A stretch of 64,000 nt of DNA from Candidatus Rhodoblastus alkanivorans (GTDB lineage: Bacteria; Pseudomonadota; Alphaproteobacteria; Rhizobiales; Beijerinckiaceae): NCBI RefSeq assembly GCF_022760755.1, contig NZ_JAIVFP010000001.1:1778001-1842000 (forward strand). The letters run 5' to 3'. The first letter of the stretch is position 1, and every line of letters starts with the position of its first letter. A model generated the notes under the pieces. It did not search any database, was not told the origin of the DNA, and worked only from the letters and a program-made list of their open reading frames with translations. Of this stretch, positions 10,952 to 16,368 are shown piece after piece. The position numbers were made by a program, and so were the translations under genes.

Positions 10952-11847
10952 TTAAGACCTGCGGGCCGCCCGCATGGATTCGGCCATGCGTGAACGGAGC
11001 GACCGGTTCAACATCCTGATGCTCCTGCGATGGCGCAAGGTATCGTAATCGAGGAACTTTTCCGCCGCGATCCGGATCGCGCCCATCAAAAGCATCCAGA
11101 CGATATTATAGGCCCAGACGAAGCCGATCAGGGTCCAGGAGATCGGGTGAACCGGCCAGCCGACGGCGCAGATCGCGACCGCAAGCGCCTGGGTCGCCAC
11201 GATCGCCCAGAACAGGGGCGCGGCCGGGAAAGGCCTTTCGAAGAACCATCGTTCGGTGCGGGTCACGAACAGCAGCAGATGGCCGCCGGCGACAAGCTGG
11301 AGGAACATCATGGTTTGCAACTGGGCCGTGCTCGTCAGGCCGAAGGCGGCGCTGTGGGCCGAATGGCCGAGGATTTCGAAACCGGCCAGGAGCAGGCCGA
11401 AGGATTGAACGATCGAGAAGAAGCCGAGCGTCGCGGAAACGCCCAGGAGCTTGGGCATTTGCCAACGGATGGGCCGTTCGCTGACGCGGACTTTGTCATA
11501 GGCGATGGCCATGATCGGAACGTCGTCGAGCAGGGAGATGACGACGATCATGATCGCGGTCAGCGGCTGGAAATTCAGGAAGATCGACGACAGCACGACC
11601 AGGAACATGATGTCCATCGTCAGCGCGACGCGATAGATCGTATAGCTGGTGATGCGCCCGAAGATGCGCCGCGCCTCGTCGATGGCGCTGTTGATGACCG
11701 AAAGCCCCGGCGCGGTGAGGATGAGGGAGGCCGCGCCGCGCGCCGCGTCGGTCGCGCCGGACACCGCGGTGCCGCAATCCGCCTGTTTCAGCGCCGGGAC
11801 GTCGTTCACGCAGTCGCCGGTCATCGCCACGATATGGCCGCGCGATT
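10952..11847 (-). pseudogene. 3' remnant of plasma-membrane-type P-type ATPase gene
   Basis: Only the C-terminal third (about 298 residues) of a P3A-type cation/proton ATPase remains. It starts at RGHIVAMTGD, next to the transposon end at 11848, and continues with VNDVPALKQAD, the membrane segment LVVLSSIFLNFQPLTAIMIV and DDVPIMAIAYDKV. The phosphorylation and nucleotide-binding domains are absent. The hinge motif, normally GDGVNDAP, reads GDCVNDVP, a further sign of decay. Expression as a working pump is excluded by the truncation. The missing 5' part is not on the other side of the transposon. Confidence 0.85.
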
Positions 11848-11865
11848 GGGTAGTGTCCTAATTTG
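11848..11865 (+). repeat. Left terminal inverted repeat of the transposon
   Basis: GGGTAGTGTCCTAATTTG. Read on the minus strand it supplies the AAT TAG codons that end the small gene 11858-12091. Confidence 0.8.
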
Positions 11866-12091
11866 CCTCTGGTAGAGGGTACAGCAGTCGCACCCTTTTT
11901 CCCTCCTCGGCGGCCCGAGCGATCCAACCGACAACCGCGCGGTAAAAGCGGGCTTCGTCTCCGCACGCCTTCAAATCAATTTCGTCCGGCATTAAAAACA
12001 TGCCGGACGAAATTGGTCTGTAGTCCAAGGAATAGGTTCCAGATGGATGCTTATTTATCTTAAACTCTATGATTGAGTCACTTGCTTGCAT
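11858..12091 (-). CDS. Small hypothetical protein downstream of transposase
   Basis: A 77-residue protein (MQASDSIIEFKINKHPSG...) of unknown function, starting 11 bases after the transposase stop on the same strand. It has no membrane segment and is mildly acidic. Its stop codon TAG lies inside the terminal repeat, so the coding sequence occupies the transposon exactly to its end. That fit supports its being part of the mobile unit, but no homology or function was recognised. Confidence 0.5.
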   Translation of the reverse strand: MQASDSIIEFKINKHPSGTYSLDYRPISSGMFLMPDEIDLKACGDEARFYRAVVGWIARAAEEGKRVRLLYPLPEAN

Positions 12092-12102
12092 AGACCGTCT
12101 CC

Positions 12103-12927
12103 TCACTTCGTCGTCGCCTCGACCAACTCTTCCAATGACCACAGGCGCGAGCTTACACCCGCCGCCATCGCTGGCGTAGTCCTGAGCGTCTTGTGGAGCC
12201 GGACAAAATTGTAATGAGCGAAATGCAGTCCAACCGCCGCGCGATGGTTCTCGACCTTCTTTGAGAAGCCATTCGTCAGGCGAGTGAACCGGCGCATACT
12301 CATTCGCATCGTCAGGTTTTGACGCTCAATCATGCTGGTGGGGATATGGGCACGATCCGGCGCGCCAGCGATAGCCGTCCGTTCCGACCGCCCAACCTTG
12401 GGAGGGCTGTAGCGACCGGGGCCAATGGGCTCGGCTTCGTAGAATTTAACTGCCTGCCCGTAGTCCACGTCCGCGCCGAAAGCCTGCTCAACAGCGTCAA
12501 CATAGGAGCTGAGCGCATCGGATGAAATCTGGACGCGGTTTGCCAGCCGCTCGGAGAGGTCAGTCATGAACGCGATAGCGTTGGACTTCGACCGCTTGCC
12601 GACCAAATAGGACGGGATCAGCTTCGTATCTGGATCAATGGCGACGAAGGTCCATTGATCGCCAACGCGCGTCTTGTCGTCGTCCTTACTGACTTGGCGC
12701 TGCTTCTTTCCGACGTAGGCCCAGATTTCATCGACCTGGATACGCTTGCAGGGCAAATCGTGCATTTCTTCATCCAAGAGCTTGGCGCAGCCGTTTCCGA
12801 CCTCGACCATAAGCCGCATGATCGTGTCGCGATGCGTTTCGGTCATTCGCTCCGTTGAACGGATCGAATTGCCTTCGACCAAGGCCCCGATGATCTGAGT
12901 GCGGCGAGCGAGGGAAATGCGGTTCAT
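12103..12927 (-). CDS. IS1-family transposase
   Basis: DDE transposase of 274 residues that would mobilise the 4.5-kb unit. N-terminal helix-turn-helix (SLARRTQIIGALVEGNSIRS), then IQVDEIWAYVGKKQR, with the first catalytic Asp in DEIW, VGDQWTFVAIDPDTKLI, and the conserved C-terminal block TSMIERQNLTMRMSMRRFTRLTNGFSKK. This architecture matches chromosomal IS1-family (InsAB-fused type) transposases. The start at 12927 has a GGAG site upstream; the in-frame extension to 12978 lacks family-like sequence. Length is normal, so the gene may be active. Confidence 0.85.
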   Translation of the reverse strand: MNRISLARRTQIIGALVEGNSIRSTERMTETHRDTIMRLMVEVGNGCAKLLDEEMHDLPCKRIQVDEIWAYVGKKQRQVSKDDDKTRVGDQWTFVAIDPDTKLIPSYLVGKRSKSNAIAFMTDLSERLANRVQISSDALSSYVDAVEQAFGADVDYGQAVKFYEAEPIGPGRYSPPKVGRSERTAIAGAPDRAHIPTSMIERQNLTMRMSMRRFTRLTNGFSKKVENHRAAVGLHFAHYNFVRLHKTLRTTPAMAAGVSSRLWSLEELVEATTK

Positions 12928-13038
12928 TTCGATCTCCTTCAATAACAAAAATGTACCCACAAATAACACACATATCAACTTTTAAATTGCTTTTGTGTGT
13001 CGTTTGTGGGAACAATAAGCCTTGACGGGGAAACGAGA

Positions 13039-13230
13039 ATGCAGAAAACTGAATTTATGAAGCTGCGCCTTCAAATCGATGAGAAACGAGCCTTCGAAGA
13101 ATCCGCAGAATTGGCAGGCATACCATTGTCAGCATGGGTGCGAGAGAGACTGCGCCGCGCAGCGCGTATCGAGCTTGAAGATGCCGGACGGCAGGTTCCG
13201 TTCGCTAGACTTAGACGGGACGAAAAATAA
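13039..13230 (+). CDS. Ribbon-helix-helix-like small protein
   Basis: A 63-residue protein with a ribbon-helix-helix pattern: strand KLRLQIDEKRAFEESAELAGIPLSAWVRERLRRAAR, like CopG/Arc-type and MobC-like small DNA-binding proteins. GGGGAAACGAG just upstream serves as a ribosome-binding site. The TAA stop shares a base with the ATG of the DUF262 gene, so the two are coupled. Being first in the cassette, next to the 111-bp AT-rich divergent promoter region, it is a candidate autoregulator (inference). Confidence 0.65.
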   Translation: MQKTEFMKLRLQIDEKRAFEESAELAGIPLSAWVRERLRRAARIELEDAGRQVPFARLRRDEK

Positions 13231-14927
13231 TGGATCACGCATCTACAGGGCTAAATTTTGAAGAGCGAGGAATAGCTGACGCTATCGCTCAACGAACTCT
13301 GCGCGTTCCACTCAATCAACGACCGTACGCGTGGACGGAGGAGGAGGTTCAAACTTTAGTCGATGACTTGTATCGCGCTTTTGATGAAGGAGCAACAATA
13401 TATTTTCTTGGAACTATTGTTTTGACGCGCGGAAACAATAAGCAATGGGAGGTCGCTGACGGACAGCAAAGGCTTGCAACAACATCTATTTTAATTGCTG
13501 CTGTAAGAGATTTTTTGATTGAGCTTGGAGACGACGCAGGGGCAGCAAAATACCAATCTACATTTCTCCTAGACTATGACCCAAGAAAGAAGGATTTTAG
13601 TCCAAAATTCTATTTGAATTATGAAGACCACGACTTTTTTCTATCCACAATTTTGAAGCCGCCAAAAGAACGAAAGGTCTTCGCGGGACAGCATTTTAAC
13701 TCACACGATAGATTAGCTGCCGCTGCAAAACTGGCATCCAACCATGTTCGAAAGATGGTTGCAGCTTTTCCGTTAAACGAAAAGGCATCAAGGCTATACG
13801 ATTGGATCGACTTTTTGCGCGAAGCTGCAAAAATAATTATTATCATGGTTCCTGGTAAGGTTGGCAACGCATTCAAAATGTTTGAAACGTTGAATGCGCG
13901 CGGAATGGAAGCGTCTCAACTTGATATTCTCAAAAACTTTTTATTTGACCTCGCAAAGGACAGACTTGCCGAAGTTCACCCGCGTTGGATTCAAATGATT
14001 TCAACCATCGAAGGTTTGGGAGAAGACGGACTGCTTCTAAAGTTTGTGCGACATTTTTGGATATCTCAGCACGGCCCGACAACTGAACGCGATCTTGGAT
14101 CGTCCGTGGAAGCATTTGTCAAAAGCGAGCGTCAGGCGGCTGAAATTATTACCGCACTTTCTTCTAACGCTTCCGATTACGTTGCAATCCTAAAGCCGCG
14201 CGATCATCCACGATGGAATGAACTTAGTCGAACAGCTAAGGGCTCTCTTTACACCATTAGCCATGAATTGGGTGGCGAACAAATAAGGCCTTTAATCCTT
14301 GCTGTCGCCAGGAATTTTCCAGCCAAAGAGGCCGAGAAGGCCTTTGAAATAATGGTATCGTGGTCCGTTCGCTTTCTCATAGCAGGGGGCGGCGGCGGTG
14401 GCGTTTTAGATAAGAATTATGGATCTAGAGCGCGTGAAATAACAAAAGGCGAGCTCACGACGGCTAAACAGCTTAAAGAAAGAATGTCTGAGGTTGTTCC
14501 AAACGATGAAGTATTTAAACGGGCGTTTTCAAGCGCGACTGTTCGAAAGAACAACCTAGCGAGATATTATCTAAAAGCGTTAGAGTTATATGTTAAGGAT
14601 GAAACTCGGCCGCAATTACTACCGAATGAGGACACATCAGCAGTGAATCTTGAGCATGTATTGCCCGTCACACCATCTGAGGATTGGGATATCGAACCAG
14701 ATATCGCCAGTGCATATTATAAGCGCATCGGAAACATGGCACTCCTAAATTCTAGGCAAAACGTCGATTTGGGAAACAAGTCATTTGTCGAAAAAAAGCC
14801 GATCTTAAAAATAAGTCCGTTTATATTAACTAGTGAAATTGCAAAACAAAGAACTTGGGGACCAAAACAAATCGAAAAACGACAGGCCGAACTTGCCGAA
14901 TTTGCCGTGAAGGTATGGCCAATATGA
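13230..14927 (+). CDS. DUF262/DUF1524 (GmrSD-like) nuclease-type protein
   Basis: A 565-residue cytosolic protein. The N-terminal DUF262 domain shows VPLNQRPYAW (26-35), DGQQRL (77-82) and FETLNARGMEASQLDILKN (about 218-236). The C-terminal DUF1524 HNH-like domain shows NLEHVLPVTPSEDW (about 472-485) and GNMALLNSRQNVDLGNKSF (about 502-520). These are the residues expected in GmrSD-type modification-dependent restriction enzymes, where DUF262 uses nucleotides and DUF1524 cuts DNA. The family role in phage defence is known; the role here is inferred. It overlaps both neighbouring genes (1 base and 4 bases). Confidence 0.85.
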   Translation: MDHASTGLNFEERGIADAIAQRTLRVPLNQRPYAWTEEEVQTLVDDLYRAFDEGATIYFLGTIVLTRGNNKQWEVADGQQRLATTSILIAAVRDFLIELGDDAGAAKYQSTFLLDYDPRKKDFSPKFYLNYEDHDFFLSTILKPPKERKVFAGQHFNSHDRLAAAAKLASNHVRKMVAAFPLNEKASRLYDWIDFLREAAKIIIIMVPGKVGNAFKMFETLNARGMEASQLDILKNFLFDLAKDRLAEVHPRWIQMISTIEGLGEDGLLLKFVRHFWISQHGPTTERDLGSSVEAFVKSERQAAEIITALSSNASDYVAILKPRDHPRWNELSRTAKGSLYTISHELGGEQIRPLILAVARNFPAKEAEKAFEIMVSWSVRFLIAGGGGGGVLDKNYGSRAREITKGELTTAKQLKERMSEVVPNDEVFKRAFSSATVRKNNLARYYLKALELYVKDETRPQLLPNEDTSAVNLEHVLPVTPSEDWDIEPDIASAYYKRIGNMALLNSRQNVDLGNKSFVEKKPILKISPFILTSEIAKQRTWGPKQIEKRQAELAEFAVKVWPI

Positions 14928-15229
14928 AAGACGAAGATATTTATCAGCTTCGCTTGACCGTTGAATCCCAACACGGCGGAACGGCGATTCATGTCCAATC
15001 GGTTCCGGTCAAAGAGACTTTCTCTGGCCAAACTGTCTGGGAAGGCGTCGTGCATGTCTTCGACCTCGCCGACAATCCTAAGGCCACGCGCGCCTATGCG
15101 TGGTCTTCGCCGATCGAGGGAAGCGACAAGCGAAGGTTCTTTACCGTGCTACATATGGGCGGCATAAGGTCGCCAGCGGATGCGGTGAGGGCCGCGATCG
15201 TGGCAGAGGCGAGGGCTAAGAATGGCTGA
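14924..15229 (+). CDS. Small hypothetical protein of the DUF262 cassette
   Basis: A 101-residue protein of unknown function (MKDEDIYQLRLTVESQHGG...). Its ATG overlaps the DUF262 stop (ATGA) and its stop overlaps the next gene by 8 bases, so it is an integral member of the operon. It is predicted mainly beta (VWEGVVHVFDLAD, RAYAWSSPIEG) with a C-terminal helix (SPADAVRAAIVAEARAK). No known domain was recognised. It may be a partner or immunity-type component of the upstream enzyme (inference). Confidence 0.6.
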   Translation: MKDEDIYQLRLTVESQHGGTAIHVQSVPVKETFSGQTVWEGVVHVFDLADNPKATRAYAWSSPIEGSDKRRFFTVLHMGGIRSPADAVRAAIVAEARAKNG

Positions 15230-15254
15230 TAGAGTGGATTACTATCGAGGCTAT

Positions 15255-16187
15255 GAGCCTGACCTGAAATTGGTTGACCGGCCTCGCGGCCCTTGATTCC
15301 CTTGGTTTGCAACAACTTTGGGAGATTCGCGATGCCGTGGAGCGAGGCCGATCGCGCGAAGTATGAAGTCATTCGGGCGCGCTATTCAAGCGATATGTCG
15401 GAGGCCGAACTGGCGCTGATTTCGCCGCTGTTGCCGCCGCCCAAACGGCGCGGACGCAAGCCGACAGATGCCCAGATCATTCTCAACGCCTTGTTTTATT
15501 TGATCCGCTGCGGCTGCCCATGGCGATATCTGCCGAAGGATTTTCCGCCGTTCACGACCGTGCAAAACCGCTTCTACGCGTGGCGCGACAGCGGCGTGTG
15601 GGCGCAAATCATCAGCGTTCTCGTGATGGACGCCCGCGAAGCGGAAAGCCGTGAGGCCGCGCCGACGGCTGTCGTCGTCGACAGCCAATCTGTCAAGACG
15701 ACGGAAGCCGGCGGCCCCCGTGGTTTCGATGCGGGCAAGAAGGTCAAGGGGCGCAAGCGCCATCTCGCCGTCGACACGATCGGTCTGCCCATCGAATGCC
15801 AGATCACGACCGCCGACGTGCAGGACCGCGACGCTCTCGCGCCGTTGCTGAAGGCCGTGCATCGCAAGAGCCCGTGGGTGAAAATGTCCTTCGTCGACGG
15901 GGGTTATCAGGGTGATGAAGCCAAGCGCGCAGCCTTCGAGGCGAGCCGCATTTCCATCACCGTCGTCAAGCGAACCGATAAAGAGGTGAAAGGATTTACG
16001 GTGCTGCCGAAACGCTGGGTCGTCGAAAGGACGCTCGGTTGGATCAATCGCGCGCGCCGTCTGTCAAAAGACTTCGAGGCGACCATCGAATCCGCCCTCG
16101 CGTGGCTGCAATTGGCCCTGGCTTTCCTTCTCATGCGAAGGCTGGCGAGGGCAAAAGCCAGTCAGAATTGAAATTCGAGTCGGGTTC
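15255..16187 (+). mobile_element. 933-bp IS5-family element, copy A
   Basis: Ends GAGCCTGACCTGAAATT and GAATTGAAATTCGAGTCGGG-TTC form an imperfect inverted repeat of about 17 bp. Three-base target duplication TAT is present on both sides. Sequence is the same as copies B, C and D as judged from identical translations in several frames. It disrupts the fourth cassette gene. Confidence 0.9.
15332..16171 (+). CDS. IS5-family transposase (copy A)
   Basis: DDE transposase of 279 residues. N-terminal DUF4096-like part (MPWSEADRAKYEVIR, ISPLLPPPKRRGRKPTDAQI, CPWRYLPKDFPPFTTVQNRF) is followed by the DDE domain with VVVDSQSVKTTEAGGPRGFD (first Asp), VDGGYQGDEAK (second Asp) and WVVERTLGWINRARRLSKDFE (catalytic Glu in VVERT). 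ATG at 15332 follows GGGAG; a TTG 39 bases upstream is less likely. The coding region is intact, so this copy could still move. Confidence 0.9.
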   Translation: MPWSEADRAKYEVIRARYSSDMSEAELALISPLLPPPKRRGRKPTDAQIILNALFYLIRCGCPWRYLPKDFPPFTTVQNRFYAWRDSGVWAQIISVLVMDAREAESREAAPTAVVVDSQSVKTTEAGGPRGFDAGKKVKGRKRHLAVDTIGLPIECQITTADVQDRDALAPLLKAVHRKSPWVKMSFVDGGYQGDEAKRAAFEASRISITVVKRTDKEVKGFTVLPKRWVVERTLGWINRARRLSKDFEATIESALAWLQLALAFLLMRRLARAKASQN

Positions 16188-16350
16188 TATGACATAGCTC
16201 TTTACTACCTTCACCGGCCAAAAGCGCGTGCGCAAATCCGTGAAGGGGACGGGCTGCCCCCGATCCATGATGGGCCGCTGGAAAAAACCCCAGAACTCGC
16301 TCTGCAAAAAGCGAAGGAGATTATTGACGAGAAACTCGCCACCTTGAAAT

Positions 16351-16368
16351 CAAATTAGGACACTACCC
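16351..16368 (-). repeat. Right terminal inverted repeat of the transposon
   Basis: CAAATTAGGACACTACCC, exact complement of the left end. It supplies the AAT TAG codons ending the plus-strand gene 15222-16358. Confidence 0.8.

Follow-up and report, generated by a model that had tools for sequence, protein, structure and literature searches.

Do four overlapping genes inside a transposon make up a defence system of their own, or is the transposon a carrier with an exchangeable load? The locus that raises this question lies in a stretch of 64,000 nucleotides from Candidatus Rhodoblastus alkanivorans (RefSeq assembly GCF_022760755.1, contig NZ_JAIVFP010000001.1, positions 1,778,001 to 1,842,000), referred to below as the window. 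At 11849-16367 of the window, an element with perfect inverted ends contains an IS1-like transposase and, in the order A-B-C-D, genes for a ribbon-helix-helix (RHH) protein, a DUF262/DUF1524 protein, a protein of 101 residues, and a further small protein. The overlaps of 1 base (A/B), 4 bases (B/C), and 8 bases (C/D) are read in the sequence, as an earlier note on this DNA had described them. That note took the four genes to be a candidate for a new defence system. The present analysis favours a different answer: with a probability of about 0.72, the element is a cargo-carrying IS1-like insertion sequence (IS), a "transporter IS", with interchangeable defence-type modules, here a GmrSD nuclease, and C is a gene of the transposase lineage.

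C and its neighbours

C is a real protein, conserved in 26 distinct copies including that of the window. Of 36 pairs compared, 18 have dS below 1.6, and in these the ratio of nonsynonymous to synonymous substitution rates (dN/dS) is 0.11-0.27, which indicates purifying selection. The predicted fold is α-ββββ-α, with a predicted local distance difference test score (pLDDT) of 92.5. No family match was found for C in PADLOC, NCBI, Pfam, and other profile libraries. The fold has no match in the PDB under E 0.001, and the best hits, not significant at E 0.24, are adhiron/affimer proteins, which we take to be cystatin-like. An antitoxin, a double-stranded RNA-binding protein, and other known folds were considered for C and set aside on these profile and structure searches.

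The neighbours of C vary. A search with C as the query found 2 viral loci and at least 17 genome loci. Among the 19 listed, the transposon end word follows C in 16, and a B homologue stands beside C in one (L008, a decayed B directly upstream), several of these loci ending at a contig edge shortly before C. Upstream of C are found XRE-ImmA proteins (L007), an oppositely oriented GmrSD_N protein from a different subfamily (L009), P63C proteins (L013, L014), or AAA_21 and RloB (RloAB; L016), and L003 has no cargo there. The earlier note had named co-occurrence of its small proteins with DUF262 genes as a check, and for C a specific co-occurrence is seen neither in these loci nor in 396 other genomes of the order. 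Among the latter, C occurs without B in three (G147, G065, and, as a fragment, G240), B without C in three, and both in one (limit for B, E 1e-60). The three B homologues without C are 30-33% identical to B, and C is absent from these loci within flanks of about 1.5 kb per side or less.

B homologues also occur on eight plasmid records (E 1e-40; 27-38% identity), and in two of these loci (L036, L037) no RHH gene was seen by eye directly before B. C has no match in 72,556 plasmid records at E 1e-5, and a pattern method found no relative of B in the viral contigs.

Short elements without a transposase match also hold C. L003 (790 bp) has an intact C and an 8-bp duplication, L010 (1281 bp) has C beside an apparent DUF262 remnant (by eye), and L017 (528 bp) has C without its N-terminal part. 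L003, which lies on the same contig as L143, as well as L108 (789 bp) and L114 (773 bp), have intact ends and 8-bp duplications and no full transposase, and are possible non-autonomous carriers.

It is improbable that A, B, C, and possibly D work together as a single new defence system in which the DUF262 nuclease has C as a functional subunit. This reading draws on the overlaps in the window, on the genome G004, where locus L032 keeps the A-B-C order with overlapping junctions at 70, 52, and 60% identity, and on the decayed B directly before C in L008. C is also found with other cargoes and alone, and is confined to one transposase clade. The best tree of C, which leaves out hits under 75 residues and duplicates, does not group the B-adjacent copies; a single clade of the three is disfavoured, not rejected, by the approximately unbiased (AU) test (p 0.065). 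B belongs to a type (HEC-06) described as acting alone in the accessible part of PMC11411939. D is broken by an insertion, and no homologue of it was found in the viral contigs. A new four-gene system is not supported. In the earlier note, the tight overlaps were taken to suggest that the small proteins are functional partners and not chance reading frames. The second half of this holds for C, a conserved protein whose linkage to B in L032 and L008 is not pure chance; the first is not supported, as C stands beside other cargoes and is not a specific partner of B. Taken alone, the overlaps misled.

In G004, a transposon-like right end with two mismatches follows C, and no left end was found. 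At L032:9598-9644, just past A-B-C, there is a pair of transposon-like ends, facing each other across 11 bases, as if two elements adjoined.

The transposase tree

The history of the carrier was followed in a tree of 85 transposases, limited to non-identical proteins with a hit of 225 residues or more, a rule that removes the C-bearing locus L202. The tree was built quickly, support is weak for 29 of its 82 inner branches, and 46 rows carry no cargo label. Over the 39 labelled rows, cargo type changes 16 times, compared with a mean of 16.6 in shuffled labels, and 43% of 200 shuffles are as low. The presence of C changes four times against 9.65 after shuffling, with none of 200 shuffles as low, and all 10 C rows fall within one starred clade of 18 rows. 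In one genome, two elements whose transposases are 96.3% identical differ in cargo, with an nSTAND ATPase in one and a P63C protein in the other. Because the cargo label ignores the tree and C is confined to one clade, cargo is exchanged between carriers without regard to the descent of the transposase, whereas C probably passes down with the transposase lineage.

Several C rows had entered the tree through the C search or the end word, and the test was repeated on the 74 rows found through the transposase only. Here, cargo changes 14 times over 34 labelled rows (13.2 after shuffling), and the four rows with C (L034, L164, L165, L166) all lie within the same clade.

Alternatively, C could itself be cargo of a selfish or defensive kind, such as an antitoxin or anti-restriction protein, which travels near the end of the transposon whatever other cargo is present. 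Purifying selection, the compact and confidently predicted fold, and the short elements L003, L010, and L017, which hold C without a transposase match, are in line with this. Restriction to one transposase clade, though weaker in the transposase-only rows, is not, nor is the lack of a defence or antitoxin family match and of a fold match under E 0.001. We regard this explanation of C as rather unlikely.

The carrier family and its ends

The transposase occurs in 26 of 385 genomes of the class, in 31 copies, and in 58 viral-contig loci. The relatives are mostly 2.6-4.4 kb long with GGTAGTG ends. Target duplications of the IS1 family measure 8-9 bp, and the search made here looked for 8 bp only. 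All seven two-ended relatives read for this purpose (L003, 7, 8, 10, 14, 17, 19) have an exact 8-bp duplication and matching inverted ends, as does L034, which marks the relatives as genuine units of transposition. The window and L034 apart, 21 of 29 genome transposase loci are delimited by ends and an exact 8-bp duplication. These 21 elements measure 2610-4021 bp (median 3339), and all of them have room for cargo, since each is 2.6-4.0 kb long. Likewise, 28 of the 58 viral loci are delimited, with a median of 2985 bp and two under 1.5 kb. At three further genome loci (L072, L082, L083) the ends are paired and no exact duplication is seen. Of 385 genomes, 5 contain the end word typical of the clade of the window copy, and none contains a reversed control.

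The ends can be read as codons. Outward reading of the end TCAAATTAG or TCAAACTGA gives Ser-Asn-stop, and this frame is open for at least 80 codons at 49 of 122 ends, a count that includes transposase genes ending there, compared with 12 and 16 for the other two frames. In the window copy, the passengers at both ends stop within the terminal inverted repeats (TIRs).

Many elements with ends other than TCCTAATTTG contain a protein of about 80 residues with a KGPKG motif (MPKGPKGEKRPADVIG...GGKARAxxLTPEQRAEIAKKAAxxRW; for example L096:9169-9438), which has no Pfam match and looks like a counterpart of C. With flanks counted, tblastn matches it at 46 of the 88 transposase loci, some of these matches being perhaps P63C N-termini, and a rough motif finds it as a separate open reading frame (ORF) in 30 of 88. 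On these counts the protein is not universal. In P63C cargo, the N-terminal part shows a similar motif by eye.

Cargo of the relatives

Passenger genes unrelated to transposition lie between the inverted ends, as the term transporter IS (tIS) implies. Forty cargo proteins were scanned singly against Pfam. Nine elements (L007, 68, 72, 76, 82, 90, 92, 93, 96) carry an XRE protein with an ImmA/IrrE peptidase, whose score barely passes in L076, L082, and L090. P63C is found in four elements (L013, 14, 34, 74) and SocA/Panacea in two (L073, 83). Single cases are GmrSD_N, AAA_21 with RloB, GNAT, nSTAND, Bro-N, DUF6941, and a helix-turn-helix (HTH) protein; matches to HARE-HTH and SlyX are below the cut-off.

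For a comparison with flanking genes, cargo was chosen by rule; neither the cargo set nor the flank set includes ORFs shorter than 120 residues or draws on seven elements that were short or had one end only. With PADLOC, 65 cargo ORFs from 28 elements gave 33 families and 65 flanking ORFs from the same loci gave three, with one member each; the contrast is one of families and top counts (members per family, first 25 of 33). The highest cargo counts are RosmerTA RmrA with 6, capP with 5, and PD-Lambda-2_B with 4, compared with at most 1 in the flanks. The capP and RmrA models probably match the same ImmA-type proteins. Cargo counts in Pfam are HTH_3 9, M78 6, P63C 3, and SocA_Panacea 2, and the flank families, among the 25 of 62 listed, are mostly metabolic, transport, and other housekeeping families.

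RosmerTA and PD-Lambda-2 are tested defence systems according to the accessible parts of PMC10440598 and PMC9519451, and the latter describes PD-Lambda-2 as a HigB-like toxin, an Xre-peptidase protein, and a third protein. Sister elements carry matches to the RmrA, RmrT, and PD-Lambda-2_B models, and the gene order of PD-Lambda-2 was seen by eye in L072 and L082. Neither system is cargo of the window copy.

It is very unlikely that the family is an ordinary IS that trapped neighbouring host genes by chance, without enrichment for defence. A lack of Pfam matches in 15 of the 40 singly scanned proteins (E 0.001) and the metabolic-looking ORFs described below would suit such trapping. The 21 delimited genome elements, each of 2.6-4.0 kb, exceed the length of a transposase alone, and neither the PADLOC contrast of 33 against 3 families nor the mostly housekeeping character of the listed flank families is expected from it.

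Other cargo was noticed by eye. A TrpC-like ORF (indole-3-glycerol phosphate synthase) is present in two C-bearing elements (L117:1277-2137, L166:4610-5617) as unexpected metabolic cargo. DNA methyltransferase-like cargo is found at L164:3275-4297, beside C, and at L150:3170-4786.

The nuclease B

By its sequence, B is classed with a known kind of nuclease, GmrSD/HEC-06, and the GmrSD-like assignment of the earlier note is borne out. The PADLOC model HEC-06 (PDLC04157) matches residues 7-564 at E 1.1e-163, covering model positions 6-556 of 558. Both Pfam domains, GmrSD_N (DUF262; 104.6 bits) and GmrSD_C (DUF1524; 85 bits), are above their cut-offs. Relatives of solved structure, found by sequence, are DUF262 proteins and SspE. 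The motifs QR, DGQQR, and FxxxN, as given in the accessible part of PMC11411939, are readable in B by eye, and an EHVLP stretch is compatible with a His-Me finger. B thus shares with HEC-06 both domains and a near end-to-end alignment to the model. In that part of PMC11411939, HEC-06 proteins function independently and their genes are embedded in Hma loci; B is instead carried by an IS1-like transposon, behind an RHH gene.

Layout and state of the window copy

The features of the element are given in Table 1. The 12-base word of its ends occurs in the window only at these two sites with at most one mismatch (chance expectation 0.10), and the 17-base end word has one site per strand across the whole genome. 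The transposase and B are each single-copy in the genome at the limits used. The G+C content is 45% in the two kilobases that contain A and most of B, and 59-70% across most of the window. The transposase scores 39.6 bits against Pfam PF03400 (DDE_Tnp_IS1), above the cut-off of 24.1, and 58.9 bits against the NCBI equivalog IS1 model NF033558, whose cut-off is 100. It is called IS1-like, and not an IS1 member, because the latter score is under the cut-off. No RNA elements were found inside the transposon at gathering thresholds.

Table 1. Features of the element in the window
Feature	Position	Strand	Basis or remark
Left terminal inverted repeat GGTAGTGTCCTAATTTG	11849-11865	+	perfect match to right end
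Passenger ORF E	11858-12094	-	about 78 aa from internal ATG; 94 aa from GTG at 12142
IS1-like DDE transposase, 280 aa	12103-12945	-	Pfam DDE_Tnp_IS1
A, RHH protein, 63 aa, NikA/RelB-like	13039-13230	+	Pfam, homologue in L032
B, GmrSD-type DUF262 + DUF1524, HEC-06, 565 aa	13230-14927	+	PADLOC, Pfam
C, 101 aa, no family match	14924-15229	+	conserved protein; predicted α-ββββ-α fold
D 5' part, small ORF, interrupted	15222-15254	+	reading frame
IS5-type insertion sequence within D	15255-16187	+	transposase 15332-16171
D 3' part	16188-16358	+	stop codon within right TIR
Right terminal inverted repeat GGTAGTGTCCTAATTTG	16351-16367	-	perfect match to left end

A: The RHH assignment made in the earlier note agrees with the Pfam NikA-like model, which A passes at 27.1 bits (cut-off 27); the match to RelB is weak (E 0.0011) and far below the cut-off. 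In one other genome, G004 (L032), a homologue of 70% identity precedes the B homologue. A is a probable autoregulator. RHH proteins like A are found in other elements and a phage contig (L150:6107-6319, L104:3358-3582, L222:3962-4183), and no DUF262 gene was seen nearby. Since such proteins recur without one, they are not specific to B. Two more were noticed by eye at L166:6833-7045 and L117:2478-2696.

D and E: The second small protein of the earlier note, D, does not stand as C does. Its frame stops after 24 codons because an IS5-type element is inserted in it. This element is flanked by a 3-bp duplication TAT (15252-15254 and 16188-16190) and has 10 more full-length copies in the genome. 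With the 3' part of D as the query, no homologue was found in the viral contigs, the one collection searched for D, and its proposed co-occurrence with DUF262 genes is not seen there. In relatives, small proteins that do not resemble one another take the position after C, and several of their frames overlap the stop codon of C by 4 bases. ORF E has no family match in any of four profile libraries, and its stop codon is within the left TIR.

Flanks: On the left, a P-type ATPase at 10952-11830, beside the element start at 11849, is reduced to its C-terminal 292 residues; the best counterpart, drawn from 20 relatives, reads through 873 codons (G782). A deletion or rearrangement beside the element after insertion is likely. 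The right flank begins a gene that by eye resembles a sulfate permease.

Weighing the evidence

Several observations count against the transporter IS with exchanged modules and a lineage-bound C. Some tie between B and C may remain, as A-B-C in L032, B-C in L008, and an AU test that does not reject one clade of B-adjacent copies indicate. In the transposase-only rows, C changes three times against 3.96 after shuffling, with 7 of 200 shuffles as low, which is the same direction and weak. L117, with a distant C in the same clade, was unlabelled in the count on the 85-transposase tree; counting it gives 3 changes against 10.6. C is present in 8 of 52 viral loci found through the end sequence alone, most of them read from one end only, and its presence in all elements with these ends is thereby ruled out. 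Of the 40 singly scanned cargo proteins, 15 lack a Pfam match, the PADLOC contrast is limited to families and top counts, and part of the cargo ORFs are probably spurious. Finally, the window copy has no target duplication.

Proposed mechanism

In a transporter IS of this kind, the transposase would move the element at its GGTAGTG... ends, with an 8-bp target duplication on insertion, as seen in relatives. Between the ends would lie interchangeable modules, which, where recognisable, are mostly of toxin-antitoxin and phage-defence types. Going by its family, B would hydrolyse NTP with DUF262 and cut modified invading DNA with the His-Me domain of DUF1524. A probably represses its own operon. 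C may be an accessory of the element, perhaps in transposition or element maintenance, and would be translated with whichever module lies upstream. D appears to be a dispensable end passenger, broken by the IS5-type element. The carrier would thus spread the defence gene among genomes and could benefit from the protection of the host.

A wider proposal is tentative, and we would not wager on it at even odds: that a widespread minimal IS1-like family is a dedicated defence shuttle. Such a shuttle would comprise a transposase, often a lineage accessory (C in the TCCTAATTTG clade, or the KGPKG protein, found mainly where the ends differ, TCTCAGTTTG being one example), one exchanged module, and ends that serve as stop codons. 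Both accessories would then be new factors of transposition or of module exchange.

If true, the unmatched genes in short elements with readable ends are candidate new defence systems, and single defence modules may travel outside large islands or Tn7-like transposons. Overlapping frames and closeness inside a transposon are no proof of functional partnership, and a transposase tree is an aid in telling C, as a gene of the carrier itself, from the cargo gene B.

Comparison with known systems

The term "transporter IS" is used in PMC3129680 and PMC7986276, which in their accessible parts both cite the 2009 work of Siguier and colleagues. As far as these sources go, the tIS of the IS1/IS1595 group share with the present elements an IS-like structure with passengers unrelated to transposition. 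In contrast, cargo is the rule in the present elements and not the exception, and it is enriched in defence and toxin-antitoxin modules. No published IS1-like elements enriched in defence cargo were found among the titles and abstracts searched, which leave out most subscription literature, including the 2009 IS1595 paper, and novelty in print is unproven. Carriage of defence genes is shared with Tn7-like transposons (PMC8649781), and carriage of toxin-antitoxin pairs with Tn3-family transposons (PMC7157771), according to the accessible parts of these papers. Both belong to other transposase families, whereas the present elements are mostly 2.6-4.4 kb long and contain a single transposase gene along with, as a rule, a single module that can be recognised.

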